The notes beneath the pieces were generated by a model that worked only from the letters and a program-made list of their open reading frames with translations, was not told where the DNA came from and ran no database searches. Position numbers and translations under genes: made by a program. This document shows, one piece after another, positions 4,601-61,891 of a DNA stretch of 64,000 nt; within the stretch, counting starts at the first letter, position 1; every line of letters begins with the position of its first letter. Source of the DNA: a virus. The stretch spans positions 1 through 64,000 of the IMG/VR virus record IMGVR_UViG_3300021962_000084; one strand, written 5' to 3'.

Positions 4601-4959
4601 TAAATTTAGCAACATCATCTATAAATTTCACTACGGGAGCATTGAATATATTTAGTGGTTCGACTAGGATAGAATTAAATAGTATTGAATCATATACAGC
4701 ATCATTAAAATCAGTAGGATTAGTAAGTGGTTCTCAGCAAATATTAGATTATAATTTATTTGCATTAACTGCATCTAATAATACTTTCTATGGTGAAAAT
4801 AGATTTGAAAATAAAGTTACACATACAAATGGTTATATAGTTTTGACACAAGTTTCACAAAGTTTGAATTTCGTAGATGATGCAGCAGCTGCATTGGGTG
4901 GAGTTCCTTTAGGTGGCTTATATAGAAATGGAAACTTTATAGCAATAAGAATAGTATAA
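1618..4959 (+). CDS. Collagen-like tail fibre protein, 1113 aa
   Basis: A fibre protein built of repeats. Residues 1-16 form a short beta head. Residues 17-172 are a collagen-like Gly-X-Y tract that begins GPKGPKGEKGD and continues mostly as GTS/GSS triplets. A short non-repetitive domain follows (about 173-300), then an adapter module (about 300-345) that also follows the collagen tracts of the two other giant fibres. Residues about 345-1060 carry Ser/Thr-rich repeats, many of them 21 residues long with the core ISSVTGAINTTTSSFDNVFL. A module with ISSSVLFVTGSNKIGDE (about 680-706) is shared with the two larger fibres. No enzymatic motif is visible. The likely role is a trimeric fibre shaft for host contact (inference from composition and location). 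It is packed tightly against its neighbours, and the stop/start pattern TAATATG to the next gene suggests one operon. Confidence 0.85.
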   Translation: MKVTVSQDLSTVIVSASGPKGPKGEKGDPHGTSGTSGTSGTSGTTGTSGSSGISGTNGSSGSSGSSGGRGPSGTSGTRGTSGSSGTSATSGTSGTSGINGTSGSSGTSGSSGTSGSSGSSGTSGSSGSSGVDGTNGTGGSSGSSGTSGTSGTSGTSGTSGTSGTSGTSGINGLEGYLAKWIYDEDTNESDPGTGKFRLNGSWNNPSISKIIIDNISHEPAAINFIDVLDSLNINSIIKIVNVLDDTIYKLFRVTVSLPDESGYEVFEVDELSSNGLASNGDVFAITLQGGNGSSGTSGLLQLTWNSPSVRDNGIITLNATSPNAVVEHALTFDGSLLQLTGSFVINGIDYTNLSSSNSTTHTNFSSSNATTFTNLSSSNSTTFTNYSSSVSGSMSFYSQSFANTHNVFTQSQIEINLGISEVSGALNRFTSSLLGQVNTISIFTASVNFTTQSLNTQTGSQELTNLRISSVTGSINTTTSSFDSVFLGISSVTGAINTTTSSFDNVFLGISSVTGAINTTTSSFDNVFLRISSTTGSINTTTSSFDNVFLGISSVTGAINTTTSSFDNVFLGISSVTGAMNTTTSSFNSEFIKIGLTTSSIHYTTESLNYTSGALNTQTGSQNLINYNTSVWTGSVRYELNDLEAYTSSLKAAIVLNGTNVTIVGELTASKIYTEFISSSVLFVTGSNKIGDETTDKHEFTGSVNIKDTLFLAGEPLGNGEINAFTASQINNDIRNLYVTGALNSFTSSQIGKDFTLSIVTSSIDAHILKQATQTGSQDLVNLAISSTTGSINTTTSSFDLVFRGISSVTGAMNIQSSSQDNLNYNLSILTSSIDAHILKQATQTGSQDLVNLRISSTTGSINTTTSSFDLVFIGISSVTGAINTTTSSFDNVFLRISSTTGSINTTTSSFDLVFRGISSVTGAINTTTSSFDAVFAGISSVTGAMNTTTSSFNSEFVKIGLTTSSIHFTTQSLNTQTGSQNQINLGISIVTGSINLATSSINFTTGALNIFSGSTRIELNSIESYTASLKSVGLVSGSQQILDYNLFALTASNNTFYGENRFENKVTHTNGYIVLTQVSQSLNFVDDAAAALGGVPLGGLYRNGNFIAIRIV
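1666..2134 (+). repeat. Collagen-like Gly-X-Y coding tract
   Basis: A nine-base periodicity encodes about 50 Gly-X-Y triplets, mainly GTS and GSS. One G-R-G and a few D or N positions vary the pattern. Confidence 0.9.
2050..2103 (+). repeat. Three perfect 18-bp tandem repeats inside the collagen tract
   Basis: The unit GGAACTAGCGGCACATCT occurs three times head to tail without a mismatch, and an 8-base partial copy follows. Each unit encodes GTSGTS. Confidence 0.9.
3020..4480 (+). repeat. 21-residue (63-bp) fibre repeats
   Basis: Two arrays (about 3020-3370 and 3950-4480) of near-identical 63-bp units encode ISSVTGAINTTTSSFDNVFLG-type repeats. The DNA as well as the protein is conserved, which points to recent tandem duplication. 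Confidence 0.8.
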
Positions 4960-4960
4960 T

Positions 4961-6742
4961 ATGGGAATGCAATTATCAGGTTCATTAAATTTAACTGGTT
5001 CTTTTAATATGACCGGTTCGTTAAGAATAAGCGGAAGTGTTGATGATATTAAATACATTGATTTTGACCAAATTGGTAATACCTCAGCTGTGGGTAGATT
5101 GGGATACGATGATGGTGAAGGTACTTTAACAATTGGGTTGAGTGGAGGTAATGTAGATTTACCAATTGGTGTAATAAATTTTGAAACTTGTTTTAATCAA
5201 GATTCTTCTTCAATATCAAAAGGACAAGCAGTAAGAGTAACTGGAGCACAAGGTAATAGGGTAGCGGTTAAAAAAGCACATGCAATAGATGATGATGGTT
5301 CTGCTGAAATATTAGGCTTAGCAGCTGAAACAATTGAAGTTGGTGTAGAAGGTAAAATTATAACATCTGGACCACTTAAAGGTGTAAACACATCGACATA
5401 CGTAGAAGGACAGAAAGTTTATCTTTCAACAACACCGGGTGCAATTACGGTGGAAAAACCACAAGCGCCGGTTCATATGGTTTGGTTAGGTGTGATTCAA
5501 AGAGTTCATGCTACAATTGGTATTATTAATATTAAGGTACAAAATGGCTACGAAATTGAAGAATTGCATGATGTTAGGATAACAACCGCATCTTTAGCAG
5601 ATAAACAATTGTTAGCAAGAAGTGGTAGTGTTTGGGCAAATCAAACAATAGATGAATTAGGAATTGCAACAACCGCATCATTAAACAATTATACTGGTTC
5701 TAATAATTATGTTTTGTATAGAATAATGCAAACAACCTCATCATTAAATACCCAAACGGGTTCGCAAGATTTGGTTAATTTAGGTATTTCTACATTTACT
5801 GGTTCAATAAGAAGTGAAATAGATTTAATTGAAGCATATACCGCATCGTTAAAAGGAGCAGCAATTGTATCATCTTCACAACAAATAACAAACTATTATA
5901 AGTTCGCTGAAACGGCATCAGCAAATACTTTCTATGGTATTCAAACTATAAGTGGTTCATTAAGAATAAGTGGTTCATTAAGAACAAATATAATAACTGG
6001 TGGATTGGATGTTAATGGTGGTATCACTGGTTCATTCAAAGGAAATTTAGCAGGTGTAGCGGATTATGCATCAACGATAGTGGTTGTAAATACAGGTACA
6101 ACAACCGATACAACATTATACCCAACATTCACATTACAACCTGTATTGGCACAATATACATCTCTTTACTCACATGCATCTTCTTCATTCTTCTACAATG
6201 GTGTGACAAGAAGATTACACATGGAAGGATTTGTTGTTTCTGGTAGTAATAATATTGCAGAAATTAGTGGTTCATTAAATGTAAGTGGTTCAACAAACTT
6301 AACTGGTTCGGTGACGGTAAACCAAAGTAGAATTGATAATGGTTGGACAGCATATACACCGGAATGGACAGCAGCATCTGTAAACCCTGTAATTAACAAC
6401 GGAACAATCGAAGGTTACTACAAAGTAATTGGTAAGACTTGTTTCGTAAGAGGTAATATTGCCATGGGAAGTACAACAACATTTGGTACTGGTGAGTGGT
6501 ATGTATCAATGCCATTTACCGCATCGCATGCAGACGCTATCTTAATGAATGCAACTTTATTAGATAATGGCACTGCTTGGTATAACGCTACAATGGTAGG
6601 AGCAAGAGCAGGATTTAATCACAAAGCACCTATACAATACCAAAATACAGGTGGAACTGCTAGTGATGTAAACCCAACTCAACCATTCACTTGGACAACT
6701 AGTGATAGATTTGTTTGGAACGGAAGTTACGAAATAGCATAA
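4961..6742 (+). CDS. Tail fibre protein with receptor-binding-type C-terminal domain, 593 aa
   Basis: The protein starts with short SGSLNLTGSF-type repeats, which many fibre proteins in this window share. A domain at about residues 65-200 (GVINFETCFNQ through IINIKVQNGYE, with conserved GQAVRVTGA and EGQKVYLSTTPG) resembles the small beta-barrel seen in other phage fibre and decoration proteins. More Ser/Thr repeats follow. The last 140 residues (from NGWTAYTPEWTAASVNPVI to DRFVWNGSYEIA) look like a compact globular tip: a TAYTPEWTA block, then YYKVIGKTCFVRG and GTGEWYVSMPF. Tip domains of this type end many phage side fibres (family knowledge). Function as a receptor-binding tip is inferred. 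A second in-frame ATG lies two codons downstream. The start is separated from the previous stop by one base. Confidence 0.8.
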   Translation: MGMQLSGSLNLTGSFNMTGSLRISGSVDDIKYIDFDQIGNTSAVGRLGYDDGEGTLTIGLSGGNVDLPIGVINFETCFNQDSSSISKGQAVRVTGAQGNRVAVKKAHAIDDDGSAEILGLAAETIEVGVEGKIITSGPLKGVNTSTYVEGQKVYLSTTPGAITVEKPQAPVHMVWLGVIQRVHATIGIINIKVQNGYEIEELHDVRITTASLADKQLLARSGSVWANQTIDELGIATTASLNNYTGSNNYVLYRIMQTTSSLNTQTGSQDLVNLGISTFTGSIRSEIDLIEAYTASLKGAAIVSSSQQITNYYKFAETASANTFYGIQTISGSLRISGSLRTNIITGGLDVNGGITGSFKGNLAGVADYASTIVVVNTGTTTDTTLYPTFTLQPVLAQYTSLYSHASSSFFYNGVTRRLHMEGFVVSGSNNIAEISGSLNVSGSTNLTGSVTVNQSRIDNGWTAYTPEWTAASVNPVINNGTIEGYYKVIGKTCFVRGNIAMGSTTTFGTGEWYVSMPFTASHADAILMNATLLDNGTAWYNATMVGARAGFNHKAPIQYQNTGGTASDVNPTQPFTWTTSDRFVWNGSYEIA

Positions 6743-24033: not shown

Positions 24034-27000
24034 ATGGCAATAAGTAATCTATTAACGGGAAGGGTAAGGGTAGTTTCACCTAAAAATGTAACATCAGACA
24101 GGTATCAATTTCTTGATTTATCTCAAGCTGAACCAAATTTAGGTGTTCCTAATTTCAGTGCTTCATTGTCTGGGTCCCCAGCTATCGTAGTATCGGATGA
24201 CCAAGGCAACAGAGGATTTGTAAGAAGCCTTGATTTAGAGAGAGTAACTGGACAATTTACAGGCTCATTTACAGGTAGTGCTACCGATTTAAGTGGTAGT
24301 TTTTCTGGTTCGTTCACTGGTTCATTTATAGGAGATGGTTCTCGATTAGTTAATCTTCCTGAAGTAACTAGAATAGCAAGTGGTTCTGCAACAGCCTCAA
24401 TATCTCCAAATTTTGGATTTCAAATAAATGTAGATACAACTATTACTGAAAATCTTTATGTATCTAAATCAATTTATGCTGAACAATTAATTGTTTCTTA
24501 CATATCATCATCTATAATTTATTCATCTGGTTCAAATGTATTTGGTGATTCTGAAAATGATTCACAGCAATTTACTGGTTCGGTTGAGGTAAGGGATAGA
24601 TTAAATGCTTATGTAATTTCTGGTTCAACCATAGCTGGTAATTTAACTGGTTCATTTATTGGATTAGCAGAAGCTACGGGTTCATTTAGTGGTTCTTTAA
24701 TAGGAAGAAGTGATACATTTGGTACATTTACTGGTTCTGCTGAAGCAACGGGTTCATTTAGTGGGTCTTTTATTGGTACGGCTGATTTATTCGGAACATT
24801 TACAGGTTCTGCAGAACTGACTGGTTCGTTTAGTGGTTCATTTACAGGTTCTTTCTTTGGAGATGGTAGAAATTTATTTAACTTACCAGAAGCAACAAAA
24901 TTAGCAACTGGTTCTGTTACGGCATCTGTAACACCTGAATTTGGATTTAAAGTATTATCAATTGATAAAGGTTCTGAATTTACTGGAAGTGTCGATATTA
25001 CTGGTAGTTTAAGTATAACAGCAACATCTGGAGCATTAGTATTGGGTTCTTCATCAGCGTATTATGGCGAGGGTACATATTTAAGAAACATACCTCGTTC
25101 AGCATTAACGGAAGATGCATTAGTTTCATCTTTTATTGTAAGTGGTAGTGTAACAGCATCAGTTTCTCCTAATTTTGGATTTGTTGTAAAATCACCTGAT
25201 AGTGGTTCTGAATTTACAGGTTCTGTTGATGTAAGTGGAAGTGTAATTGCACAATTCTTTATAGGAGATGGTTCTCAATTATTAAATGTACCATCAACTG
25301 TTGCACCTAGAATAGCAAGTGGAAGCGTAACTGCTTCTGTTTCTCCTCAATTTGGATTTAAAGTAGAATCGAATGCAAGTGGTTCTGAATTTACTGGTTC
25401 AGTAGATATATCAGGTTCTATATCAGCATCATTATATAGGGGTGATGGTAGTGGATTATTTAATATTCCGGTATCAGCATTATCGGAAGAAGTATCTCGT
25501 ATCGCTAGTGGTAGTGTAACCGCATCAGTTTCTCCTGTATATGGATTTAGAGTTGAAGCAGCAGCAAGTGGGTCTGAATTTACTGGTAGTGTTAATGTAA
25601 CTGGTAGTGTAATTGTAGAAAGTGGTTCTATATATGTTGGTGATGGTAGTGGATTAAGAAATATTCCATTATCTGCATTGGCTGAAGAAGTAGTTGCTGC
25701 AACAAAAATATTATCTGGAAGTGTAACAGCTTCTGTATCTCCTGAATTTGGATTTAGAGTAGAATCTACACTTAGTGGTTCTCAATTTACAGGTTCTTTA
25801 TTAGTAAGTGGAAACGTAGAATTATATACTGGTTCATTTAGTGGTAGTGGTAAGAATCTTAGAGAAATTCCAAAATCAGCAATTTCTGATTTAGATACAT
25901 CTTTAATCTTTTCTGGTTCTGCAACTGCATCAATTAATCCTGTAAAAGGGTTTAATGTAAATATATTTTCACAATTTAGTGGAAGTATGTCTGTATCGGC
26001 TTCTAACTTTGTAGTACCAAGTCAATCATTAGATTTAACATTTAATGTAACAAATGATGGTTTCGCAGCTTATGTATTTACTGGAGCAGCAAGCGGTTCA
26101 AATCCAACACTTACTTTAGTAGAAAATGTTGTTTATAGATTTGTAGTAAATGCACCCGGTCATCCTTTTTATATTAAAACAACAAACACAAGCGGAGCTG
26201 GTGGTGCATATAACTCTGGAGTATTAAACAATGGTACTGATAATGGTGTAGTAACATTTAATGTACCATCTGGAGCACCATCAACATTATATTATGTTTG
26301 TGGAAACCACTCATCAATGGTAGGTACAATTAATATTGTATCTGAAATAGTAAGACCTGCATTGATTGAGTTTATAGGACCTACTAATATCACTGGAAGT
26401 TTAGGAATTAGTGGTAATGTTACTGCATCTATGTTTAGTGGAAGTGGTAGAGGATTATTTGATATTCCATTCACATCATTTACAGGAGATGCATTTAGAA
26501 TAGCTAGTGGTTCGGTTACAGCGTCTGTTGCACCCAATTATGGATTTAGAGTTGAGGCTTTAGATTTGGGTAGTGAATTTACAGGTAGTGTTGATATAAG
26601 TGGTTCATTATTTGTAAGTGGTTCAATAACCGCATCTAAGGGAATAGTTGCAAATACAATATCAGCATCATTCTTTATTGGCGATGGTTCTCAACTTAGA
26701 AATGTACCATCATTAGAAAGTTTTAGAATTGCTAGTGGTAGTGTAACCGCATCCGTTTCTCCTGATTTTGGATTTAGAGTTGATTCTGTTGAACTTGGTT
26801 CATATTTTAGTGGAAGTGTTAAGGTTAGTGGAAGTATATTCACATTTGGAAATATAGAACTACAAAGTGGTTCTGCGTTTAGTGGTAGTGGTAAAAATTT
26901 ATTTGATATACCTCGTTCCGCTTTAACTCCTGATGCATTAGAATCAACATTCATAGCAAGTGGTAGTGTAACTGCATCGGTTACTCCAAATCAAGGATTT

Positions 27001-30000
27001 GTTGTTCAATCGGTTGCAAGTGGTTCTAAATTTAGTGGCTCGTTATTCCTAAGTGGTTCAGTATTTTTAACAACTGGTTCATTTAGTGGTAGTGGTAAGC
27101 AATTATTTGATATACCCGTTGCGGCCATTTCCGATTTAGATACATCAAAAATATTTAGTGGTTCGGTAACCGCATCCGTTTCTCCTGTTCAAGGATTTGT
27201 AGTTACATCTTATGCAACGGGAAGTACATTCTTAGGTAGTGTAAGAGTAACAGGAAGTTTATCAGCAACAGGAAGTGGATTTTTTGCAGCGGGTGTATCG
27301 GCATCAGTATTTAGTGGTAGTGGTGCAGGTTTAACGGATATTCCGTTTTCAGCATTATCGCAAGAATTATTTAGAATAGCAAGTGGAAGTGTAACTGCTT
27401 CCGCATTGCCTGATAGAGGGTTTGTTGTTCAATCTGCGGCAAGTGGTTCAAGAATAACTGGTAGTGTTGCAATTACAGGTAGTTTAACAATAACTGCAAC
27501 CTCTGGAGCATTGGTATTGGGTTCTTCATCAGCTTATTTTGGAGAAGGTACTTATTTAAGAAATATACCTAGAAATGCATTAACTGAAGATGCATTATTA
27601 TCAACGGAAATTAAATCTGGTTCGGTAACTGCGTCTGTATCACCTGACTTTGGATTTGTAGTAAAATCTCCTGATAGTGGGTCAGAATTTACTGGTTCTA
27701 TTGATGTTAGTGGTAGTTTGTATGTTAGAGGTGATGTAACTTCTACTAGTGGTTCTTACTTTATTGGAGATGGTAGGTATTTATCAAATATAACAGTTGC
27801 AAATTTAGCAATTGATTCTACAAAAATATTTAGTGGAAGTGCTACTGCATCTATTTCACCAACTGAAGGATTTGAAGTAAATACTCATTCTAGATTCGAT
27901 GGTAGTTTTATTGTATCATCTTCTGGAAGGCCTACTCCTGATTATTTAATTGAAAAAGTATTTAATGTAACAAATGAAGGTAGTAATGCATACACTTTTA
28001 GTGGAGCTGCAACTGGTTCAAATCCAAACATTACTTTAGTAAGGGGTACAACATATACATTTAATGTAAACGCTCCTGGTCATCCTTTTTGGGTAAAATA
28101 TGTTGCTTCAATAGGAACATCTTGGCAATATAGTGGAAGTATTTCAAATAATGGTACTGATAATGGTACTATAACATTTACGCCACCATCTGGTTCTCCT
28201 GATACATTGTATTACAATTGCCAACTTCATTCTTTGATGGCAGGTACTATAAACATAGTAAATGAAATTACTATACCTGCTGAAATTAAATTTGTTGGAA
28301 ATACAAAAATAGAAGGCAACTTAACTGCTTCTATGTATAGTGGTAGTGGTAGAGGATTATTTGATATACCTCGTTCAGCGTTATCGGAAGAAGTATTTAG
28401 AATTGCTTCTGGTTCAATAACAGCATCAGTAACTCCTGATTTTGGATTTAAAGTTGAATCAATAGAAAGTGGTTCTCAATTTACTGGTTCTGTTAATATT
28501 AGTGGAAGCTTATATATAAATCCTTATAGTGGTTCATTACAATTAGCATCTGGTTCATCTTATTATGGTGAGGGTTCTTATTTAAGAAATATCCCTCGTT
28601 CGGCACTTACCGAAGATGCACAAATATCAACCGAAATCAAATCTGGGTCAGTTACCGCATCAGTATCACCTGATTATGGATTTATTGTATTAACTCCATT
28701 TACATCTTCATTTGGTGAAAATGGTTCATTTACCGCATCGATAGCATCGCAATTTACTGGTTCGGTTTCTATATCTGGTAGTTTATTTGTTGGTGATGTA
28801 AGTGGTGGTTTGTTTATAGAATCATCATCATTTATATACGCAGAAGGTACTTATTTAAGAAATATACCTCGTTCATCTCTAACAGAAGATGCACTTATTA
28901 GTACCGAAATCAAATCGGGTTCAGTAACTGCATCTGTAACTCCTGACGAAGGCTTTAGAGTAATTACTCCATTTACTGGTTCGCAAATTGGTTCTCAATT
29001 TACTGGTTCGGTTAATGTAAGTGGTTCTATCATTGTAGATGACGTAACTGCTAGGGGATTCTTCTTTGGTGATGGTAGGTATATTACAAACGTACAAGCG
29101 GCAGCAGCTCCTTTAATCGCTAGTGGTTCGGCAACGGCATCCGTAGCAAGTGGCGAATCTTTTGTAGTAATAACTGCAAAAACAGGTTCACAAATTGGTT
29201 CTGAATTTACTGGCTCGGTTGGTATTAGTGGTTCTATTTCAGCATTTGATATTACATCCACTGGATTCTTCTTTGGTGATGGTAGATTTATTACAAATGT
29301 ACAAGCATCAGCGGCACCATTAATCGCTAGTGGTTCGGCAACTGCATCAGTAGCAAGTGGTGATACTTTTATAGTAACTACATCTGCAACTGGTTCTCAA
29401 ATTGGTTCTAGAATTACTGGTAGTGTTTCAGTTAGTGGTTCATTAACTGCTGATGATTTAACTGCAAGAGGATTTGTATTTGGTGATGGTAGATATTTAA
29501 CAAATGTACAAGCGGCAGCAGCTCCTTTAATCGCTAGTGGTTCGGCAACCGCATCGGTACAAAGTGGACAACAATTTATTGTAACAACTGCACCATCATC
29601 TGGTTCATATCAATCTCAATTCACATCATCGGTAGCAATTAGTGGTTCGATAACTGCATCTTTATTTATAGGTGATGGTGGTGGATTATTTAACATTCCA
29701 CCTGATGCGATTGAAAACTTAGAGTTATTTAAAATTAACTCTGGTTCTGGATTTGCACAGGTAGACCCAACTAAATTATTAGTAAACGTACCAATAACAG
29801 CGGCACTTTACATAGGTGATGGTGGTGGACTATTTAATATCCCTGCAAATGCATTACAAGACCTTAAGTTAGATAGAATTATATCAGGTTCGGTTCAGGC
29901 GGTAATATCTCCTGATAAAGGATTGGAAGTTGGAACTAAAACATTCGTATCTGGTAATTTAAGTGTTAGTGGTGGATTATTTGTGACAGGAGGAAATGTA

Positions 30001-33000
30001 ATAGTTTCTTCTGGTTCAACATTCATTGGAGATGGTAGTGGAATCACAAACATTAACATAGCTAACTTATCATTTGAAACATTCATATTAAAGAGTGGTT
30101 CATATACCGCATCAATTTCTCCTGATAAAGGATTTGTAGTTAATACATCTGCTAGTATTTGGGGTAATGTTTATGTTGGTAATAATTTAACAGCAACTGA
30201 TGTAACTGCATCTCATAGAGTATTTGCTCCTTTATTTACTGGTTCATTCTTAGGAACTTATAATTTCCAAGGAGTAGGACCTACCGCATCGGCTCAATAT
30301 GATATTTTAAGATTTGATGAAAATAGAGGATATTTTGTACCTCAACCTGAAACTTCACTAACCGAAACTGTACCATTTAATAGTGTAAGTGATTTGACTA
30401 TTGTACATAATTTGGGGATACGATACCCGATGGTACAGGTTTATGCAACTGGTTCTGAAGACCAATTGTTACCAGGTCAAATTATTTCAATAGATGAAGA
30501 TACAATTCAAATTAAATTTGCTGGATTAACTTCTGGACATGTCGTAATTGGTAGTGGTGGTTCTCTAATAAATGGCACATTACCTGGCGATAGAGTATTT
30601 GGGGCTGTACTTTCAGCATCTTATGCACAAACTGCAGAATTTGCAAAAACTGTAGCAGGTTTTGATTCAGCATCGTTAGCATCATTATCAGCATCATTGA
30701 GTGATACATCTCAATATGTTAGAAATAATCAAACATCATCTATGGCTGTGTTTAGTGCAGTAAGTTCTTCTTACGCATTAACTGCATCTTATGTTTCTGA
30801 TTTGAGTGGTATAAATTTAACTGATTATGTAAGAAATGACCAAACAGCATCTATGAGGGTGTTGAGTTCATCATTTGCAATTACATCATCTTACGCATTA
30901 TTTGCACAAAACGCATCGAATGTAGATACATCAAACTTTGTTCAGAATTCACAAACCGCATCAATGTTGGTTGGTACTGCTTCATTAGCATTTACCGCAT
31001 CATACGCTCTTTACGCTTTAAATGCGGAAGGTGTAAATACAGCATCATTCTTACAAGTAAATAAAGATTCTTCTATAAATGCTAATTTAACAATTAGTGG
31101 AAGTTTGGGTGTAAGTGGTAGTGTTTATTTGGGTGGTATTGCATCTGCATCTTATGATGAAGTTGTAACATGGGACCCAATAAGTAAAAAATTAGGATAT
31201 AGAAACGTAGCAGCAGCTGTTGGTTCTTCTGGAACTGGTGGTACTTCTGGTTTTGATGGTAATGACGGAACTGATGGTACTTCTGGAAGTAGTGGTACAT
31301 CTGGAAGTAGTGGTTCAAGCGGCTCATCTGGAAGTAGTGGTACATCTGGAAGTAGTGGACAGGATGGTTCATCTGGTTCATCTGGAAGTAGCGGTTCATC
31401 TGGAAGTAGCGGTTCATCTGGAAGTAGTGGTTCATCTGGAAGTAGTGGTTCAAGTGGCACATCTGGAAGTAGTGGTTCAAGCGGCACATCTGGAAGTAGT
31501 GGTACTGATGGTACACCTGGTTCATCTGGTACGAGCGGTACAAGCGGCACATCCGGTTCATCTGGTACGAGCGGAAGTAGTGGTTCAAGCGGCACATCAG
31601 GAACTTCTGGTACAAGTGGCTCAAGTGGAACATCAGCAACAAGCGGAAGTAGTGGTTCATCTGGTAGTGGTGGAACTTCTGGCACAAGCGGTAGTGGAGG
31701 TTCTTCGGGAACATCTGGTACGAGCGGAAGTAGTGGTTCAAGTGGCACATCAGGAACTTCTGGTACAAGTGGCTCAAGTGGTAGTGGTGGTTCTTCAGGA
31801 TCGTCTGGAACAAGTGGCACATCTGGAACAAGCGGTTCAAGTGGCACATCGGGAACATCTGGTTCATCGGGAACATCCGCATCATCTGGTAGTGGTGGAA
31901 CATCAGGCTCTGGTGGTACGTCTGGTACAAGCGGCACAAGCGGTTCATCGGGAACTTCTGGAACAGCTGGTACAAGCGGCTCAAGTGGTACATCAGCATC
32001 TTCTGGTTCTGGCGGTACGGCAGGTACATCAGGTACAGCTGGAACTGGTGGTACTTCTGGCACAAGTGGAACAAGTGGCACATCTGGTTCAGATGGTTCA
32101 AATGGTACATCAGGAAGTAGTGGAACTGCTGGTACGGGTGGTTCGGCTGGTACATCGGGAACTTCTGGCACATCGGGAACTTCTGGAAGTTCTGGCACGA
32201 GCGGTAGTAGTGGTTCGAAAGGTTCGGATGGTACAAGTGGTACATCTGGTTCTGATGGTTCGTCTGGAACAAGTGGCTCTGCTGGAACAAGTGGTAGTAG
32301 TGGTAGTAGTGGAAGCTCAGGAACTTCTGGTACTACGGGTTCGTTTGGTACATCCGGCTCAAGTGGAAGTAGTGGAACATCTGGTTCAAGTGGCACAAGC
32401 GGAAGTAGTGGAAGTAGTGGTACTACGGGTTCGTTTGGTACATCCGGCTCAAGTGGAAGTAGTGGAACGAGTGGCACATCTGGAACATCGGGTTCAGCCG
32501 GTTCGTCTGGTAGTAGTGGTTCGTCTGGTACAACAGGTTCATTCGGAACAAGCGGCAGTAGTGGTACATCAGCCACATCTGGAAGTGGTGGTACAAGCGG
32601 TACAAGCGGTACTGATGGTTCTAGCGGAACTGGTGGCACAAGCGGCTCATCTGGAACATCTGGTACAACGGGTTCATTCGGAACAAGCGGCTCATCTGGT
32701 TCATCGGGTACATCGGGTGTTGATGGTACAAATGGTTCAAGCGGTTCTTCTGGGTCTTCTGGTACAAGCGGTACATCTGGCACAAGCGGTACATCTGGTT
32801 TAGATGGAACATTCTTTGGTTCATCTGGAACAAGCGGCACATCGGGAACAACGGGAACTGCTGGTAGTGGTGGTTCTTCGGGAACATCTGGCACAAGCGG
32901 TTCATCTGGAAGTAGTGGTATAGATGGAACATTCTTTGGAACACATGGTACATCTGGAACTAGCGGTTCAAGTGGTACATCAGCAAGTGCAGGTACATCT

Positions 33001-34974
33001 GGAAGTAGTGGAACAAGTGGCATCAGCGGTTCTTCTGGAACTACTGGAAGTTCTGGTTCATCTGGTTTAGATGGTACATATTTTGGTTCATCGGGAACAT
33101 CTGGCAGTAGTGGTAGTGGAGGAACATCAGGTTCTTCTGGAACTACGGGAACAAGTGGTTCATCCGGTTCATCTGGTTTAGACGGAACATTCTTCGGTTC
33201 GCATGGAACAAGCGGTTCAGCTGGAAGTGGAGGTACGTCTGGCTCGTCTGGTTCATCTGGGTCAGCTGGAACTGGTGGTACATCAGGTTCGAGCGGTATC
33301 GATGGAACTAATGGTTCAGCTGGAAGTGGGGGTTCATCTGGTACATCCGGAACATCTGGTTCATCTGGATTAGATGGAACATTCTTTGGTTCACATGGTA
33401 CATCAGGAACTTCTGGTTCGTCTGGTAGTGGAGGTTCTTCGGGAACTTCTGGTTCTTCTGGTTCTTCTGGTAGCGCAGGTTCTGATGGAACTTCGGGTTC
33501 ATCTGGTTTAGATGGGACATTCTTTGGTTCTCATGGTACTGCTGGTACGGGTGGTTCATCTGGTACGTCTGGTACATCAGGTAGTAGTGGTGAGAGTGGC
33601 ACATCCGGTAGTAGTGGAGTTAGTGGTACGTCTGGTTCATCTGGATTAGATGGAACATTCTTTGGTTCTAATGGTACGTCTGGCACAAGCGGAAGTAGTG
33701 GAGAAAGTGGAACAAGTGGTACAACAGGAACAGCAGGTTCAAGCGGTACTTCAGCTACATCAGGTTCTTCTGGTTTAGATGGTACAAATTTTGGAACATC
33801 TGGAACTAGCGGAGAAAGTGGTACTTCTGGAACTAGCGGAGAAAGTGGCACATCAGGAACATCTGGTTCATCAGGAACATCTGGTTCTTCTGGTTTGGAT
33901 GGAACATATTTTGGTAGTAGCGGTACAACGGGAACATCTGGAACAAGCGGAGAGAGTGGTACAAGCGGCAGTAGTGGAGAAAGTGGCACATCAGGAACAT
34001 CCGGTTCATCTGGATTAGATGGAACATTCTTTGGAAGTAGTGGTACATCGGGAACATCCGGTTCAAGTGGAGAAAGTGGTACATCTGGTACATCTGGATT
34101 GGGTACAAATGGTACATCTGGTAGTAGCGGATTGGATGGTACTTATTTTGGAAGTAGTGGTACATCTGGTACATCTGGGGCAGGAACATCTGGTTCTTCT
34201 GGTACTGATGGAATTGGTACAAATGGTACAAGCGGAAGTAGTGGTGTTGATGGTACATTCTTTGGAAGTAGTGGTACATCGGGAACATCTGGAGCAGGAA
34301 CATCTGGTTCGTCTGGTACATCTGGACTTGGAACATCTGGTACTTCTGGAGTTGATGGAACTTTATTTGGTTCTTCTGGTACTTCGGGTGTTAATGGTAC
34401 GTCTGGAATTACGGGCACAAATGGAACATCGGGAACATCGGGAGTAACTGGTACAAGTGGAACATCTGGATTCCTACCATTATCCGGAACTACAAATAAT
34501 GGTGTTATTACATGGGATAATCCGTTATCGGCTGGAAATGTTGAAAGTAATTTAACATTTAACGGAAGTACATTAAGTATAACAGGAAATGTAACAACAA
34601 CTACATCGGTAGAGGCAACAACATTTGTATCAGCTGGTTCTTATATAGTTGGTACACAATATAGAGAAACATTCTCTGATTTAGGAACAGGTGGAAGTGT
34701 AACAATAGACCTTTCAACTGGTAATAATTTCAGAAGACAATTTAATGGAGCAGCAACACTTACATTTAACAATCCACCATCATCAAATGCGTTTGGATTT
34801 ACTTTAACAATGGTAAATGCAGGTGCATACGTTATCACATGGCCGGCTTCAATAGATTGGGTAGGAGGTACATCACCGATATTAACATCAGCTGGAACGG
34901 ATGTATTAACATTCTTTACATTTAATGGTGGTACAACTTATTATGGATTTGTTGTTGGAAAAAATCTTAGTTAA
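24034..34974 (+). CDS. Giant fibre, 3646 aa: cupredoxin-like domains and 1080-residue collagen-like tract
   Basis: Residues about 75-280 are short TGSFSGSF repeats. Residues about 113-2050 hold about 23 modules of roughly 85 residues, each with I.SGSVTASVSP.FGF, then FTGSVDISGS and F.GDGS.L.NIP.SAL. Two cupredoxin-like domains interrupt them (about 666-773 and 1308-1415). Each keeps a His (H710, H1350) and a C-x2-H-x2-M loop (C756/H759/M762; C1396/H1399/M1402). Residues about 2150-2390 are Ala/Ser/Thr repeats (SYALTASYVSDLSG). Residues 2396-3478 are collagen-like, with aromatic interruptions of the form GLDGTFFG. The last 168 residues form a globular tip (FLPLSGTTNNGVITWDNPL ... FVVGKNLS). 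No cleavage or enzyme motif is seen. The likely role is a very long trimeric fibre. The start is an ATG in TAAAGAATGG, behind a TATTTATA motif. Confidence 0.88.
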   Translation: MAISNLLTGRVRVVSPKNVTSDRYQFLDLSQAEPNLGVPNFSASLSGSPAIVVSDDQGNRGFVRSLDLERVTGQFTGSFTGSATDLSGSFSGSFTGSFIGDGSRLVNLPEVTRIASGSATASISPNFGFQINVDTTITENLYVSKSIYAEQLIVSYISSSIIYSSGSNVFGDSENDSQQFTGSVEVRDRLNAYVISGSTIAGNLTGSFIGLAEATGSFSGSLIGRSDTFGTFTGSAEATGSFSGSFIGTADLFGTFTGSAELTGSFSGSFTGSFFGDGRNLFNLPEATKLATGSVTASVTPEFGFKVLSIDKGSEFTGSVDITGSLSITATSGALVLGSSSAYYGEGTYLRNIPRSALTEDALVSSFIVSGSVTASVSPNFGFVVKSPDSGSEFTGSVDVSGSVIAQFFIGDGSQLLNVPSTVAPRIASGSVTASVSPQFGFKVESNASGSEFTGSVDISGSISASLYRGDGSGLFNIPVSALSEEVSRIASGSVTASVSPVYGFRVEAAASGSEFTGSVNVTGSVIVESGSIYVGDGSGLRNIPLSALAEEVVAATKILSGSVTASVSPEFGFRVESTLSGSQFTGSLLVSGNVELYTGSFSGSGKNLREIPKSAISDLDTSLIFSGSATASINPVKGFNVNIFSQFSGSMSVSASNFVVPSQSLDLTFNVTNDGFAAYVFTGAASGSNPTLTLVENVVYRFVVNAPGHPFYIKTTNTSGAGGAYNSGVLNNGTDNGVVTFNVPSGAPSTLYYVCGNHSSMVGTINIVSEIVRPALIEFIGPTNITGSLGISGNVTASMFSGSGRGLFDIPFTSFTGDAFRIASGSVTASVAPNYGFRVEALDLGSEFTGSVDISGSLFVSGSITASKGIVANTISASFFIGDGSQLRNVPSLESFRIASGSVTASVSPDFGFRVDSVELGSYFSGSVKVSGSIFTFGNIELQSGSAFSGSGKNLFDIPRSALTPDALESTFIASGSVTASVTPNQGFVVQSVASGSKFSGSLFLSGSVFLTTGSFSGSGKQLFDIPVAAISDLDTSKIFSGSVTASVSPVQGFVVTSYATGSTFLGSVRVTGSLSATGSGFFAAGVSASVFSGSGAGLTDIPFSALSQELFRIASGSVTASALPDRGFVVQSAASGSRITGSVAITGSLTITATSGALVLGSSSAYFGEGTYLRNIPRNALTEDALLSTEIKSGSVTASVSPDFGFVVKSPDSGSEFTGSIDVSGSLYVRGDVTSTSGSYFIGDGRYLSNITVANLAIDSTKIFSGSATASISPTEGFEVNTHSRFDGSFIVSSSGRPTPDYLIEKVFNVTNEGSNAYTFSGAATGSNPNITLVRGTTYTFNVNAPGHPFWVKYVASIGTSWQYSGSISNNGTDNGTITFTPPSGSPDTLYYNCQLHSLMAGTINIVNEITIPAEIKFVGNTKIEGNLTASMYSGSGRGLFDIPRSALSEEVFRIASGSITASVTPDFGFKVESIESGSQFTGSVNISGSLYINPYSGSLQLASGSSYYGEGSYLRNIPRSALTEDAQISTEIKSGSVTASVSPDYGFIVLTPFTSSFGENGSFTASIASQFTGSVSISGSLFVGDVSGGLFIESSSFIYAEGTYLRNIPRSSLTEDALISTEIKSGSVTASVTPDEGFRVITPFTGSQIGSQFTGSVNVSGSIIVDDVTARGFFFGDGRYITNVQAAAAPLIASGSATASVASGESFVVITAKTGSQIGSEFTGSVGISGSISAFDITSTGFFFGDGRFITNVQASAAPLIASGSATASVASGDTFIVTTSATGSQIGSRITGSVSVSGSLTADDLTARGFVFGDGRYLTNVQAAAAPLIASGSATASVQSGQQFIVTTAPSSGSYQSQFTSSVAISGSITASLFIGDGGGLFNIPPDAIENLELFKINSGSGFAQVDPTKLLVNVPITAALYIGDGGGLFNIPANALQDLKLDRIISGSVQAVISPDKGLEVGTKTFVSGNLSVSGGLFVTGGNVIVSSGSTFIGDGSGITNINIANLSFETFILKSGSYTASISPDKGFVVNTSASIWGNVYVGNNLTATDVTASHRVFAPLFTGSFLGTYNFQGVGPTASAQYDILRFDENRGYFVPQPETSLTETVPFNSVSDLTIVHNLGIRYPMVQVYATGSEDQLLPGQIISIDEDTIQIKFAGLTSGHVVIGSGGSLINGTLPGDRVFGAVLSASYAQTAEFAKTVAGFDSASLASLSASLSDTSQYVRNNQTSSMAVFSAVSSSYALTASYVSDLSGINLTDYVRNDQTASMRVLSSSFAITSSYALFAQNASNVDTSNFVQNSQTASMLVGTASLAFTASYALYALNAEGVNTASFLQVNKDSSINANLTISGSLGVSGSVYLGGIASASYDEVVTWDPISKKLGYRNVAAAVGSSGTGGTSGFDGNDGTDGTSGSSGTSGSSGSSGSSGSSGTSGSSGQDGSSGSSGSSGSSGSSGSSGSSGSSGSSGSSGTSGSSGSSGTSGSSGTDGTPGSSGTSGTSGTSGSSGTSGSSGSSGTSGTSGTSGSSGTSATSGSSGSSGSGGTSGTSGSGGSSGTSGTSGSSGSSGTSGTSGTSGSSGSGGSSGSSGTSGTSGTSGSSGTSGTSGSSGTSASSGSGGTSGSGGTSGTSGTSGSSGTSGTAGTSGSSGTSASSGSGGTAGTSGTAGTGGTSGTSGTSGTSGSDGSNGTSGSSGTAGTGGSAGTSGTSGTSGTSGSSGTSGSSGSKGSDGTSGTSGSDGSSGTSGSAGTSGSSGSSGSSGTSGTTGSFGTSGSSGSSGTSGSSGTSGSSGSSGTTGSFGTSGSSGSSGTSGTSGTSGSAGSSGSSGSSGTTGSFGTSGSSGTSATSGSGGTSGTSGTDGSSGTGGTSGSSGTSGTTGSFGTSGSSGSSGTSGVDGTNGSSGSSGSSGTSGTSGTSGTSGLDGTFFGSSGTSGTSGTTGTAGSGGSSGTSGTSGSSGSSGIDGTFFGTHGTSGTSGSSGTSASAGTSGSSGTSGISGSSGTTGSSGSSGLDGTYFGSSGTSGSSGSGGTSGSSGTTGTSGSSGSSGLDGTFFGSHGTSGSAGSGGTSGSSGSSGSAGTGGTSGSSGIDGTNGSAGSGGSSGTSGTSGSSGLDGTFFGSHGTSGTSGSSGSGGSSGTSGSSGSSGSAGSDGTSGSSGLDGTFFGSHGTAGTGGSSGTSGTSGSSGESGTSGSSGVSGTSGSSGLDGTFFGSNGTSGTSGSSGESGTSGTTGTAGSSGTSATSGSSGLDGTNFGTSGTSGESGTSGTSGESGTSGTSGSSGTSGSSGLDGTYFGSSGTTGTSGTSGESGTSGSSGESGTSGTSGSSGLDGTFFGSSGTSGTSGSSGESGTSGTSGLGTNGTSGSSGLDGTYFGSSGTSGTSGAGTSGSSGTDGIGTNGTSGSSGVDGTFFGSSGTSGTSGAGTSGSSGTSGLGTSGTSGVDGTLFGSSGTSGVNGTSGITGTNGTSGTSGVTGTSGTSGFLPLSGTTNNGVITWDNPLSAGNVESNLTFNGSTLSITGNVTTTTSVEATTFVSAGSYIVGTQYRETFSDLGTGGSVTIDLSTGNNFRRQFNGAATLTFNNPPSSNAFGFTLTMVNAGAYVITWPASIDWVGGTSPILTSAGTDVLTFFTFNGGTTYYGFVVGKNLS
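24370..30150 (+). repeat. About 23 SGSVTASVSP modules
   Basis: Units of about 250 bp, each encoding a beta-rich module. The units are diverged in DNA but constant in layout. Copies 18-20 (near 29120-29580) are closer to each other, with the shared segment NVQAAAAPLIASGSATASV. Confidence 0.8.
31220..34466 (+). repeat. Collagen-like tract with regular aromatic interruptions
   Basis: About 360 Gly-X-Y triplets, nearly all GTS, GSS, GAG-type or GGS. From about 32800 to the end, 13 copies of G(L/I/V)DGT(F/Y/N/L)FG break the triplet phase by one residue. Confidence 0.9.
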
Positions 34975-59090: not shown

Positions 59091-59480
59091 ATGTCATACT
59101 TTATACCATTAAAAAACACTTATAGATATGCATCTGTAGCGAAATTGGGACAAGAATTTAGTCCTAAAAAAATAGCAGCACATATCCCAACACCACAAGA
59201 TGTTGATTATCAGCGTGGCTATATAGTAAGATATTTTATACAAAAAGCAAATGATAAAGATTCTAAAATCTTTGAAGTTGATGAATATGGTTTTGCAAAA
59301 TTTATAAACTCACCATTTTATATTGCGGTTGAAATTGATTGGAGATTGGCAGGGCCTACCGATGAAATTAGACAATCTAATATGAAATCTATAAATTTTG
59401 TAAAAAAACAAATGCCTGCTTTAAAAATGTATTTGGTAAATTACCTTCAATTTTCAAAAAATAATTTGGAATTGTTATAA
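59091..59480 (+). CDS. Baseplate-associated protein of unknown function, 129 aa
   Basis: No family recognised with confidence. Visible parts: an N-terminal LKNTYRYASVAKLGQEFSP, the middle DYQRGYIVRYFIQKANDKDS with EVDEYGFAKFINSPFYIAVE, and a helical C-terminus EIRQSNMKSINFVKKQMPAL. Because it starts 3 bases after the hub gene, it is translated with it and is probably a baseplate part. It is the last gene of the tail operon. Its 3' end contains the -33 TTTG of the tmRNA promoter. Confidence 0.7.
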   Translation: MSYFIPLKNTYRYASVAKLGQEFSPKKIAAHIPTPQDVDYQRGYIVRYFIQKANDKDSKIFEVDEYGFAKFINSPFYIAVEIDWRLAGPTDEIRQSNMKSINFVKKQMPALKMYLVNYLQFSKNNLELL

Positions 59481-59496
59481 AAGTTTCGTATATTTG
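59465..59496 (+). promoter_or_regulatory. Bacteroidota-type promoter of the tmRNA
   Basis: TTTG (59465-59468), then exactly 20 bases, then TATATTTG (59489-59496). This is the known consensus of the main sigma factor in Bacteroidota (TTTG, 19-21 bases, TAnnTTTG). The tmRNA starts 14 bases after the last G. Confidence 0.75.
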
Positions 59497-59504
59497 TATT
59501 TATA
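59497..59504 (+). promoter_or_regulatory. Candidate phage late promoter at the tmRNA (TATTTATA)
   Basis: The octamer ends 6 bases before the first G of the tmRNA, the spacing expected of a -10 element. It adjoins the host-type promoter. Confidence 0.55.
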
Positions 59505-59510
59505 AAGTAT

Positions 59511-59902
59511 GGGGATGTGATGGCATTTGATTGCAATGCGAATAGTAGTATCACACGTAGTGGGATGGGTTCTCTCACCACTTTAATCTCGGAATCAAAC
59601 AATAACCGACGTAGAATTATCTACTTGGAACTTCGAAGATGCTATGGCATTTGTAGGAGCTTACGATTACGCTGTAGCAGCCTAATCTCCTCCCGCATCA
59701 CTCGTGGGATTTAAATAGAAGTGAACAAACCGGAGCATTACTTATCGGCTCCCTAAAACTGATAGGTTGGTGGAAACGCTGAACTAACCATTCGGCCCCA
59801 ATTATTTTGGAAAGTTAATAAGATTAAACTTTATCCTAAACGTGTAATTCGTTGGTATTACGATTACTTTGTAAGACACGGGTTCGAATCCCGTCATCTC
59901 CA
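59511..59902 (+). ncRNA. ssrA: Transfer-messenger RNA (tmRNA)
   Basis: A 392-base one-piece tmRNA, the ribosome-rescue RNA that acts as tRNA-Ala and then as a short mRNA for a degradation tag. The 5' GGGGATG (59511-59517) pairs with CATCTCC (59895-59901) to form a 7-bp acceptor stem; the discriminator is A59902, and CCA is not encoded. The T arm is ACGGG-TTCGAAT-CCCGT (59878-59894). Helix P2 is seen as GTAGTATC (59545-59552) with GGTATTAC (59854-59861) and ACACG (59553-59557) with CGTGT (59841-59845). The D-loop region TGGCATTTGATTGC has the usual tmRNA look. The tag frame ends at the TAA at 59683. Downstream, GGAGC/GCTCC with ACTTATC/GATAGGT forms a plausible pseudoknot. It has its own promoter and terminator. 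Phage-coded tmRNAs are known but uncommon. Confidence 0.9.
59611..59685 (+). other. tmRNA tag reading frame
   Basis: The frame ends in TAA (59683-59685). The coded tag ends AFVGAYDYAVAA. If translation resumes near GAC/GTA (59608-59613), where E. coli would have its resume codon about 90-100 bases from the 5' end, the tag has 24-25 residues. If it resumes at GCA (59647) it has 12. The end is AVAA where most bacterial tags have ALAA. The resume codon cannot be fixed by eye. Confidence 0.6.
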
Positions 59903-59906
59903 CAAC

Positions 59907-59944
59907 AATCCTGAACTACTATTTGGTAGTTTGGGATTTTTTTT
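59907..59944 (+). terminator. Rho-independent terminator of the tmRNA
   Basis: A 14-bp stem (AATCCTGAACTACT with GGTAGTTTGGGATT, three G-U pairs), a 4-base loop ATTT, then a run of T. It begins 5 bases after the tmRNA 3' end. Confidence 0.9.
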
Positions 59945-59953
59945 GTATCTTTG
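59922..59953 (+). promoter_or_regulatory. Bacteroidota-type promoter of the polymerase gene
   Basis: TTTG (59922-59925) lies in the loop of the tmRNA terminator. Exactly 20 bases later is TATCTTTG (59946-59953). The ATG at 59959 is 6 bases after the last G, so transcription should start at or next to the start codon. Confidence 0.75.
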
Positions 59954-59958
59954 TGAAT

Positions 59959-61242
59959 ATGAAAATTGTTGAATCTATTGTAGAATTAAACGAATTGAGA
60001 AATTTGTTGGAAACCGAAGTATCCATTTGGTATCCGATGTGGGTAGATAATGATAAGCACCCACAAAACACTCATATATCGTTTGTATTCATTAGAACCC
60101 AGTCGGACAAGTATATACTACCACAACAACATACAGACGCTGTATCACTCTCTAATGAGGAAATAGAAGGTGTGTTGAATACTGCCGGTGAGAAGTGGGT
60201 ATTCCAAAAGAAAAAGCTACTACAATCTTTTACAAATGTAAGGGAAGGATTGAATGATGTTGATACTGCTCACTTCCTAAAGACAGGTGAGCCAATAGAT
60301 TACCAACAACCACTCCAACACTTAGTAGCACCTTTACTACACAAAGGTTACAAAGAGGACATCATTCAATCCATTCCCATTCTAAAACTTGCGGAAGCAA
60401 TAGAACCACAATTACTTAAACATAGAAACCAAAAGAGTAAAACTTATAATTGGTATAACGATACATTCTTACCTACCCTTTCAGATATTGAACGATATGG
60501 GATTCGGGTCGATGGGAAAAAATTTATTGATAGATGGCCTCAAGCTCACAAACAGCTTTCTCCCCATTCAAAGGTATATACGGAGTACAATCCATTTACG
60601 GTGACGGGAAGACCATCCAATAGACATGGTGGTGTGAACTATGCCGCCCTAAACAAAACCGATGGTAGTAGAGATGTGTTCGTTTCCGATGGGATATTTC
60701 TACAAATGGATTACAACGCATACCACCCACGACTAATTGCTAAGTTGGTTAAGTATGATGCACCGGATGGTAATATGCACCAATGGTTAGCCGAACAATA
60801 TGGATGTAGTGTGGATGAATCGAAGGGAATAACATTCCAACTGCTTTATGGTGGTATTGATGATGAGTTTCGACAAATCCCATACTTTGATAAGGTGGCT
60901 GATTATATTGATAACTTATGGATTGAAACACAAAGGAATGGATACCTCCAAACACCACATAGAATGATACCCCTAAGTTGGATAGAACAACCCAATGCTC
61001 AAAAGGTATTCAACTATCTACTACAAGCGGTAGAAACTGAAATGAATATTGATAAAATGGGAAAGATATTAGAATGCATTAAGGGGAGTGGGATTGAGTT
61101 TTCCCTTTATACCTATGACTCGTTCCTTTTTGATGTTCCGACTGATGTTGATAAAGAATTAATTAAAGGATTGAAGGAAATAATCGAAGAAGGTGGGTTT
61201 CCTATCAAAGCAAGTTGGGGAAAAACATACGGAAAACTCTAA
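59959..61242 (+). CDS. Compact family-A DNA polymerase-like protein, 427 aa
   Basis: The palm/fingers motifs of family-A polymerases are visible: NPFTVTGRPSNR (template-binding TGR), motif A QMDYNAYHPRLIAKL with the catalytic D251, motif B K289-GIT-F293-QLL-Y297-GG, which keeps the K-x3-F-x3-Y order of the O-helix, and motif C YTYDSFLFDV with D387. Departures from E. coli Pol I: the Glu after motif A (E710, which excludes ribonucleotides) is His256, the phosphate-binding Arg before the O-helix Lys is missing, and the HDE triad is YDS. Residues 1-130 could be a worn 3'-5' exonuclease; the DxE motif is not seen. ATG 59959 is chosen because the promoter and terminator lie just upstream. The protein may replicate, repair or prime phage DNA, but activity is not certain. 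Confidence 0.75.
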   Translation: MKIVESIVELNELRNLLETEVSIWYPMWVDNDKHPQNTHISFVFIRTQSDKYILPQQHTDAVSLSNEEIEGVLNTAGEKWVFQKKKLLQSFTNVREGLNDVDTAHFLKTGEPIDYQQPLQHLVAPLLHKGYKEDIIQSIPILKLAEAIEPQLLKHRNQKSKTYNWYNDTFLPTLSDIERYGIRVDGKKFIDRWPQAHKQLSPHSKVYTEYNPFTVTGRPSNRHGGVNYAALNKTDGSRDVFVSDGIFLQMDYNAYHPRLIAKLVKYDAPDGNMHQWLAEQYGCSVDESKGITFQLLYGGIDDEFRQIPYFDKVADYIDNLWIETQRNGYLQTPHRMIPLSWIEQPNAQKVFNYLLQAVETEMNIDKMGKILECIKGSGIEFSLYTYDSFLFDVPTDVDKELIKGLKEIIEEGGFPIKASWGKTYGKL

Positions 61243-61248
61243 AGAACA

Positions 61249-61256
61249 TATTTATA
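61249..61256 (+). promoter_or_regulatory. Candidate phage late promoter (TATTTATA)
   Basis: It lies 7 bases after the polymerase stop codon and 14 or 26 bases before the possible ATGs of the nuclease gene. Confidence 0.45.
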
Positions 61257-61282
61257 GTATATACAAAAACATGCTATATACT

Positions 61283-61891
61283 ATGAAAAAAATCTTTGTT
61301 TTATTATCGTTTCTTTTTGTTTCGATAGTTTCTTTTGGCCAATTGCCTGATGTTAGAGTAAAGAATGAAGTGTTTGATATACTTTATTCGCAATCGTTAG
61401 AACAACCACTAATTATCAAGTATCGTTCTACAAATAGACCAACAAATGTGAATAGAGGTCACATGGATTTCTATACCGAAAAGGCAATCAAAACTTCAGA
61501 TGGTGAAGATTACAAAGGAAATGTTTACGATAAAGGACATGGGGCTCCAGCAGCAACATTTTCTGATAACGAAGTAAACCTAAAGCAAACTTTTTCATAC
61601 TTAAACTCAATAATGCAGAATCAATATCTTAATAGAGGTGAGTGGAGAATGTTAGAAGAACAAATCCGTAAATGGGATGATACAGAACCAATCACTGTCT
61701 TAATAAAAACTTTCTTTGATACTCCGGTTAAAAGAGTACCAACTGGTGCAGCAATTCCATCTCATTTACAAAAACACATTTACTTTGAAAAACAAAAGAA
61801 ATGGAAGTGTTTTGTATTCCTAAATGAAAGACCAAAATTTCATTGGGATGAATTGGAAATGATATGTGAAGCTGAAGACCACAAATTTTAA
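61283..61891 (+). CDS. Secreted DNA/RNA non-specific endonuclease (NUC1/DRGH type)
   Basis: Residues 1-20 (MKKIFVLLSFLFVSIVSFGQ) are a clear signal peptide with a likely cut near SFG-Q. The mature part has the beta-beta-alpha-metal nuclease motif YDKGHGAPAATF (the general base is His86) and further on LNSIMQNQYLNRGEWRMLEE, with the metal-binding Asn and the W of this family. Substrates would be DNA and RNA, cut without sequence preference (family knowledge). The length of 202 residues is near the family minimum. ATG 61283 gives the best signal peptide; ATG 61271 would add MLYT. A secreted nuclease is unusual in a phage tail/replication region. It may degrade host or competing phage DNA in the periplasm or after lysis (inference). 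The stop overlaps the next ATG (TAATG). Confidence 0.82.
   Translation: MKKIFVLLSFLFVSIVSFGQLPDVRVKNEVFDILYSQSLEQPLIIKYRSTNRPTNVNRGHMDFYTEKAIKTSDGEDYKGNVYDKGHGAPAATFSDNEVNLKQTFSYLNSIMQNQYLNRGEWRMLEEQIRKWDDTEPITVLIKTFFDTPVKRVPTGAAIPSHLQKHIYFEKQKKWKCFVFLNERPKFHWDELEMICEAEDHKF

Follow-up and report, generated by a model that had tools for sequence, protein, structure and literature searches.

Phage tmRNAs are commonly catalogued as translation helpers, with tags as assigned by ARAGORN. Full tmRNA genes are known from Bacillus phage G, the mycobacteriophages Bxz1, Cali, Wildcat and others, the methylophage Melnitz, and huge phages (PMC4131195, PMC9004378, PMC7162821), and a survey found tmRNAs in 402 of 18,146 phage genomes (PMC9004378). 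Like the RNA described here, these are full tmRNAs within a phage genome, and their use of the translation factors of the host is assumed (PMC4131195, PMC9004378, PMC7162821). The Melnitz tmRNA is a two-piece molecule tied to a glutamine riboswitch, whereas ours consists of one piece. Mycobacteriophage DS6A encodes a tmRNA reduced to the tRNA-like domain, which carries no tag and inhibits the host tmRNA (PMC4131195, PMC11915505); it is likewise a phage RNA aimed at trans-translation, but the RNA studied here is complete. The demand that a phage can place on the system is illustrated by lambda-immP22, which plates 10,000-fold less on ssrA or smpB mutants of E. coli; this need is mainly for ribosome recycling, and a secondary role of tagging is debated (PMC2862035). 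A long tag, AANKNEENTNEVPTFMLNAGQANYAFA, is encoded by the ssrA gene of Mesoplasma florum and is degraded by Mf-Lon (PMC9097571). It resembles the tag reported below in its length and in having, besides the terminal degron, an internal region, and it is a precedent for rerouting to another protease (PMC9097571); however, it is chromosomal and unrelated in sequence, and its protease is known. The one-piece tmRNA of Bacteroidota (ssrA, Rfam family RF00023) has the same architecture, G3.U pair, pseudoknots, resume signal, -AA tag end and stop inside P5. The phage family described here differs from it by a tag of 23 to 26 instead of 9 to 10 residues with a conserved STxTFEDxM[AS]F extension, by lacking an encoded CCA and by modular exchange. 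That phages carry tmRNAs is established; the novelty lies in conserved long tag families and in the exchange of their tags. The freely accessible literature searched contained no report of such a family, of the tag core strings or of a mosaic tmRNA.

The DNA analyzed (the window) is a stretch of 64,000 nt, corresponding to positions 1 to 64,000 of the 69,807-bp IMG/VR record IMGVR_UViG_3300021962_000084. A preliminary description of this sequence had proposed a complete tmRNA architecture, with a 7-bp acceptor stem, a TTCGAAT T-loop, P2 and a pseudoknot, in a gap of about 480 bases. All of these parts were recovered, and the gap measures 478 nt between the end of the upstream open reading frame (ORF) at 59480 and the polymerase ATG at 59959. 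ARAGORN placed a tmRNA at 59511-59903. The covariance-model check that had been suggested gave an RF00023 match at 59511-59905, covering all 374 model positions (73.3 bits, cut-off 47, E=1.4e-26), and both programs agree with the proposed ends. RF00023 was the sole Rfam family matched anywhere in the window, and a search of the whole record returned this tmRNA as the only one. ARAGORN and Rfam both gave a one-piece gene order and not the permuted (two-piece) one. On sequence evidence, 59511-59902 is confirmed as a genuine, complete one-piece phage tmRNA gene.

The gene lies on the plus strand, as do the RNA parts, the tag frames, the promoter and the terminator-like stem given below, and extends from the mature 5′ G to the discriminator A (59511-59902), CCA not being encoded. 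The 7-bp acceptor stem P1 is formed by strands at 59511-59517 and 59895-59901; G 59513, the third base, pairs with U 59899 as the alanine identity pair G3.U, which was invariant in 42/42 distinct copies. P1, the T arm (59878-59894; loop TTCGAAT at 59883-59889) and the lack of an anticodon arm define the tRNA-like domain. P1 and the T stem were 100% paired, and four of the five T-arm pairs showed double changes. The P2 helices have their 5′ side at 59531-59558 (59531-59536, 59545-59550 and 59553-59558) and their 3′ side at 59840-59874; P2a was 100% paired, with double changes at 4/6 pairs. Pseudoknot PK1 (59559-59596) comprises H1 (59559-59563/59578-59582) and H2 (59568-59572/59592-59596). It is followed by the resume signal AAUAACC (59601-59607), whose U-5 and A-4 are equivalent, by alignment and by the rule of PMC2481249, to U85 and A86 of E. 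coli. Downstream of the tag reading frame (59608-59685), whose C-terminal codons are held by helix P5 (59666-59686), lie PK2 (59691-59724), PK3 (59732-59766; double changes at 4/5 pairs of H1 and 5/6 pairs of H2) and the PK4 region (59778-59832) with hairpins at 59778-59796, 59798-59810 and 59811-59832. The 3′ strands of P1 and P2 follow from the written-out structure and covariation, as do P5 and PK2, and the PK4 region from covariation.

The downstream polymerase and the upstream 129-amino-acid (aa) protein served as scan queries and led to 160 phage loci. A tmRNA was present in 77 of the 80 polymerase loci. Two of the other three (L070 and L080) are cut by the contig end, and the third, in the close relative L008, represents a replacement: a 132-aa ORF, which we read from its sequence as ParB-like, occupies the exact tmRNA position (4601-4999 of that locus). 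L008 represents a natural loss of the tmRNA gene. Among the 80 loci found via the 129-aa protein, 58 contained a tmRNA; those with more distant homologues were mostly without one, and 19 loci of this kind gave no Rfam tmRNA match. Across 42 distinct copies, standard pairs filled 89.7% of the 3457 pair cells, compared to 41 to 45% with slid partners. Double changes were seen at 29/86 pairs, compared to 6 to 10 in the slid controls, which bears out the compensatory changes in related phages that had been predicted. Covariation included P2, P5 and the pseudoknots. PK1-H1 was the one poor scorer (36% in the automatic count) because the relatives' stems sit in another register; the alignments show these to be other stem types (AGACA/TGTCT and AAGGTT/AACCTT).

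The tmRNA is phage-borne, as indicated by its phage neighbours and by a conserved synteny, with the 129-aa gene upstream and a DNA polymerase A-like gene directly 3′, in 77/80 loci. The preliminary description had placed it in a T4-like late region. This is broadly right, as a tail sheath, a gp19-like tail tube and T4 baseplate matches below the threshold were found upstream; the polymerase gene directly downstream shows, however, that the neighbours are not all late genes. Directly after the polymerase gene, 61193-61891 of the window encodes a DNA/RNA non-specific endonuclease (PF01223) that appears to carry a signal peptide. A promoter and a terminator of its own were also recovered. The Bacteroidota-type promoter (59465-59496) consists of TTTG (59465-59468), a 20-nt spacer and TATATTTG (59489-59496), and a similar TTTGG...TATATTT arrangement recurs 5′ of related tmRNAs; counting both strands, the window contains four instances of the full TTTG-N17-21-TAnnTTTG motif. 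An intrinsic-terminator-like stem-loop with a T tract follows at 59907-59945. By the shuffle test, 0.7 such stems are expected per shuffle by chance, so that it is weak alone; a similar stem is found in relatives. The polymerases of named phages are only 26 to 32% identical, and searches of the named relatives immuto and Mel-JY01 gave no full tmRNA. A 51-bp similarity to Mel-JY01 (59456-59506) covers the promoter and the end of the upstream ORF and lies outside the tmRNA. The source is metagenomic, and we infer a Bacteroidota host only from the promoter type and the distant Flavobacterium-phage relatives. It had further been suggested that the RNA keeps ribosomes free for proteins of 3,000 to 4,000 residues. 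ORFs of this size do exist, but nothing ties them to the tmRNA, and L008 has lost it. A 3646-aa ORF at 24034-34974 contains collagen triple-helix repeats (Pfam PF01391, E=4.5e-93).

A tag frame with a stop had been claimed without coordinates. Such a frame exists, and it encodes a long, phage-specific tag that had been missed. The 25-aa tag DVELSTWNFEDAMAFVGAYDYAVAA is read from GAC 59608 to the TAA at 59683-59685. GAC 59608 lies 12 nt past the end of PK1 (59596), behind AAUAACC, which corresponds to the E. coli rule of a resume codon about 12 nt after PK1 and a U85/A86 signal (PMC2481249). Homologous tags were found in the relatives. All 47 of 47 distinct copies keep the tag in frame, and 61/61 gap runs are multiples of 3. 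The pairwise dN/dS was 0.43 in the tag frame versus 1.40 and 1.57 in the two other frames, and third codon positions were variable in 24/26 cases, compared to 12/26 and 14/26 for first and second positions. The dN/dS was similar in the two parts of the tag, 0.45 for the extension and 0.38 for the C-terminal core. The input sequences of the selection tests and of the PHI test described below are related and partly redundant. These comparisons show that the 25-codon frame is under purifying selection at the amino-acid level, which has kept a terminal hydrophobic degron and a stop. The first tag codons (59611-59624) can also form a hairpin, GUAGA-AUUA-UCUAC, for which relatives have the paired forms GUUGA/UCAAC and GAAGA/UCUUC; a role as RNA beside coding is possible. 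The local fold in the window tag region gave z = -2.84, and a weak control, the synonymous recoding of 24 tag variants, gave a mean z of -0.7 with no significant individual values. Some of the conservation of the extension may be structural because part of it can fold as RNA hairpins. Extra RNA structure was rejected as the reason for the extension, since recoding predicts only slightly weaker folding.

Bacteroidota tags are different: 103/108 sampled tmRNAs with a called tag had 9 to 10 residues, typically GENNYALAA or ADDYSYAMAA, and the 25-aa window tag falls outside this class. The pattern FEDAM[AS]FVGA had no match in 395 Bacteroidota genomes. A narrower pattern, covering ED[hydrophobic]M, gave two matches in 84,980 GTDB genomes, neither with a detectable tmRNA nearby; the EDAM form was run on the 395 Bacteroidota genomes only. 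In viral contigs, the core pattern of the long tag occurred in at least 103 places, 78/103 inside an ARAGORN tmRNA and the remaining ones with an upstream signal and a tail of the same type. The long tag persists on very different tmRNA backbones (L543, L580 and L428), in L428 together with a phage polymerase of only 50% identity. A 24-aa tag query retrieved nothing convincing from 50,697 phage records, and none of the window ORFs ends in -VAA or -LAA in the manner of the tag. By these pattern searches, the long tag is phage-specific within the collections sampled.

General tmRNA scans of viral contigs yielded mostly tags of 8 to 14 residues, with long ones present. A second family, here called B (e.g., AEDIMSIPTSLTRGNAVFARNAELAIAA), was found in about 30 viral contigs; it has the pattern AEDIMSIPTSLTRG...ELAIAA and about 28 to 32 residues (L587, L576 and L538 are among its carriers), and none was found in the 395 Bacteroidota genomes. 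It has the core E-D-hydrophobic-M-[AS]-[FI] in common with the window tag family. This likeness was noticed after the fact and may reflect shared ancestry, function or chance. Viral-contig tmRNAs with 21-aa tags, family C, include GNTFAKLAALGLTREEAVVGA, GNVLDKMETLGLVRESEVTVA, GNTFAKMAAIGLIAEEATVVA and GDVFANATVGHFVTEGATVAA (L567, L490, L600 and L309). LR756508.1, a 484-kb phage with a polymerase about 32% identical, contains a full tmRNA (L399, 1501-1944), for which ARAGORN returned 'Tag not identified'; we read its putative tag as ADYESAGFTAEDFAQMDGESLYHGSERKPAAV, 32 aa. The same phage has a separate tRNA-like-domain-only tmRNA of about 110 nt (L401, record positions 414804-414915), which resembles the DS6A inhibitor. 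Some viral-contig tmRNAs have host tags, e.g., ANDENYALAA and GENNYALAA.

Pairwise comparison of the copies revealed segments of discordant similarity. L003 and L045 have tags that are 100% identical in nucleotides, while the other segments are 32 to 65% identical, except for the 10-nt resume linker (80%). Conversely, L022 and L048 share 60% of the tag and 77% of PK2-PK3 but are 93 to 100% identical elsewhere, and L017 and L047 match to 99 to 100% at both ends, but their tags match to only 71% and their PK2-PK3 segments to 39%. A PHI-type permutation test rejected the absence of recombination (0.207 versus 0.318, p<=0.0005). L045 is represented by one contig only; the types of L017, L047 and L022 were each seen at several loci, which speaks against assembly chimeras. 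Judging from these alignments, tag and pseudoknot segments are swapped between tmRNA backbones in a cassette-like manner.

Taken together, the demand of lambda-immP22 for trans-translation and the protease-changing tag of Mesoplasma make ribosome rescue combined with a docking extension the best reading. We assign a probability of about 0.8 to the RNA being a functional one-piece tmRNA of a T4-like-tailed Bacteroidota phage that would work via host factors, a YAVAA degron and the extension. Ribosome rescue with host SmpB is its likely function. No SmpB or ClpP was found in 11 related records, and the protein partners must therefore be those of the host; the absence of phage-encoded versions is unproven because most of these records are fragments. 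As in established trans-translation, host enzymes would mature and charge the tmRNA, and SmpB and EF-Tu of the host would bring it to ribosomes that have stalled on non-stop mRNA. Translation would resume at GAC 59608, and the nascent chain would gain Ala and DVELSTWNFEDAMAFVGAYDYAVAA before its release. The terminal YAVAA would act as the usual ClpX-type degron, and the conserved extension of 16 residues as a second, phage-specific signal, most likely by docking tagged proteins to a protease, an adaptor or another factor, different from or additional to that serving the host tag. Docking is the least certain step, and we consider its chance to be slightly below even. More tentatively still, these RNAs could constitute a distinct class of tailed-phage tmRNAs, in which long tags with an E-D-hydrophobic-M-[AS]-[FI] signal, present in at least two otherwise different families and exchanged as cassettes, reroute or mark what is made on ribosomes that stall in the infected cell, for a protease, adaptor or other factor that the host tag does not use.

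The reading frame itself has one competitor, VNKPEHYLSAP (59721-59756), which is the ARAGORN output for the window copy. This frame overlaps the PK2-H2 and PK3 strands, lacks a resume signal at the usual spacing from PK1 and is broken in the relatives, where the stop is lost, the frame shifted or internal stops occur in the same columns. ARAGORN itself selects the long frame in most relatives (e.g., DVELSTWTFEDAMAFVGADYAVAA). VNKPEHYLSAP is almost certainly the wrong tag, and the chance that it is the real one is negligible. A similar misassignment, in which the reported tag is spurious and lies beyond the real one, was seen in about 21 related loci, some of which share a contig; automatically filled tag databases may hold such errors. 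A more serious competitor is an ordinary tmRNA acquired from the host that serves recycling only and for which tag length would not matter, with an extension that was inserted after the resume signal, ahead of a host-like GADYAVAA, and is neutral or serves RNA structure. The terminal part of the tag does resemble host tags, relatives show alternative paired forms of the hairpin with which the extension begins, and rescue rather than tagging is the main requirement of lambda-immP22 in E. coli (PMC2862035). However, an insertion of this kind would not readily account for purifying selection on amino acids that is as strong in the extension as in the core, for indels of whole codons only, for a motif kept on very different backbones and in L428, or for the lack of the long tag in all 395 Bacteroidota genomes, and predicted folding was only slightly weakened by synonymous recoding. 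We therefore regard a host-acquired, recycling-only tmRNA as unlikely.

The two other origins or roles that we considered fare far worse. Since ssrA is a common integration site, the locus could be what remains of a host ssrA where a prophage attached, or contaminating host DNA, and the host tags on some viral-contig tmRNAs would fit such an origin. The full-length gene, its conserved place after the 129-aa gene and before the polymerase in 77/80 phage loci and a phage-specific tag absent from the sampled host genomes make this scarcely credible. A decoy that inhibits host trans-translation has a precedent in DS6A (PMC4131195), and LR756508.1 has a tRNA-domain-only RNA beside its full tmRNA. 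The window RNA, however, keeps all parts, among them the resume signal, the stop, the four-pseudoknot region and G3.U, and its tag is under selection; a decoy role is thus very improbable. Functional rescue with a long, selected tag remains our preferred reading.

The tag assigned by software is wrong here, and the one identified by comparison is a long peptide that is under protein-level selection, absent from the sampled bacterial genomes and shuffled between phages. This makes a direct test possible, in which the 25-residue tag and extension-only variants are placed on a reporter to find what binds or degrades them. If docking proves true, new degradation tags would be on offer. Should a specific protease or adaptor prove to be the docking partner of the extension, these phages would redirect, and not merely top up, the protein quality control of their host.
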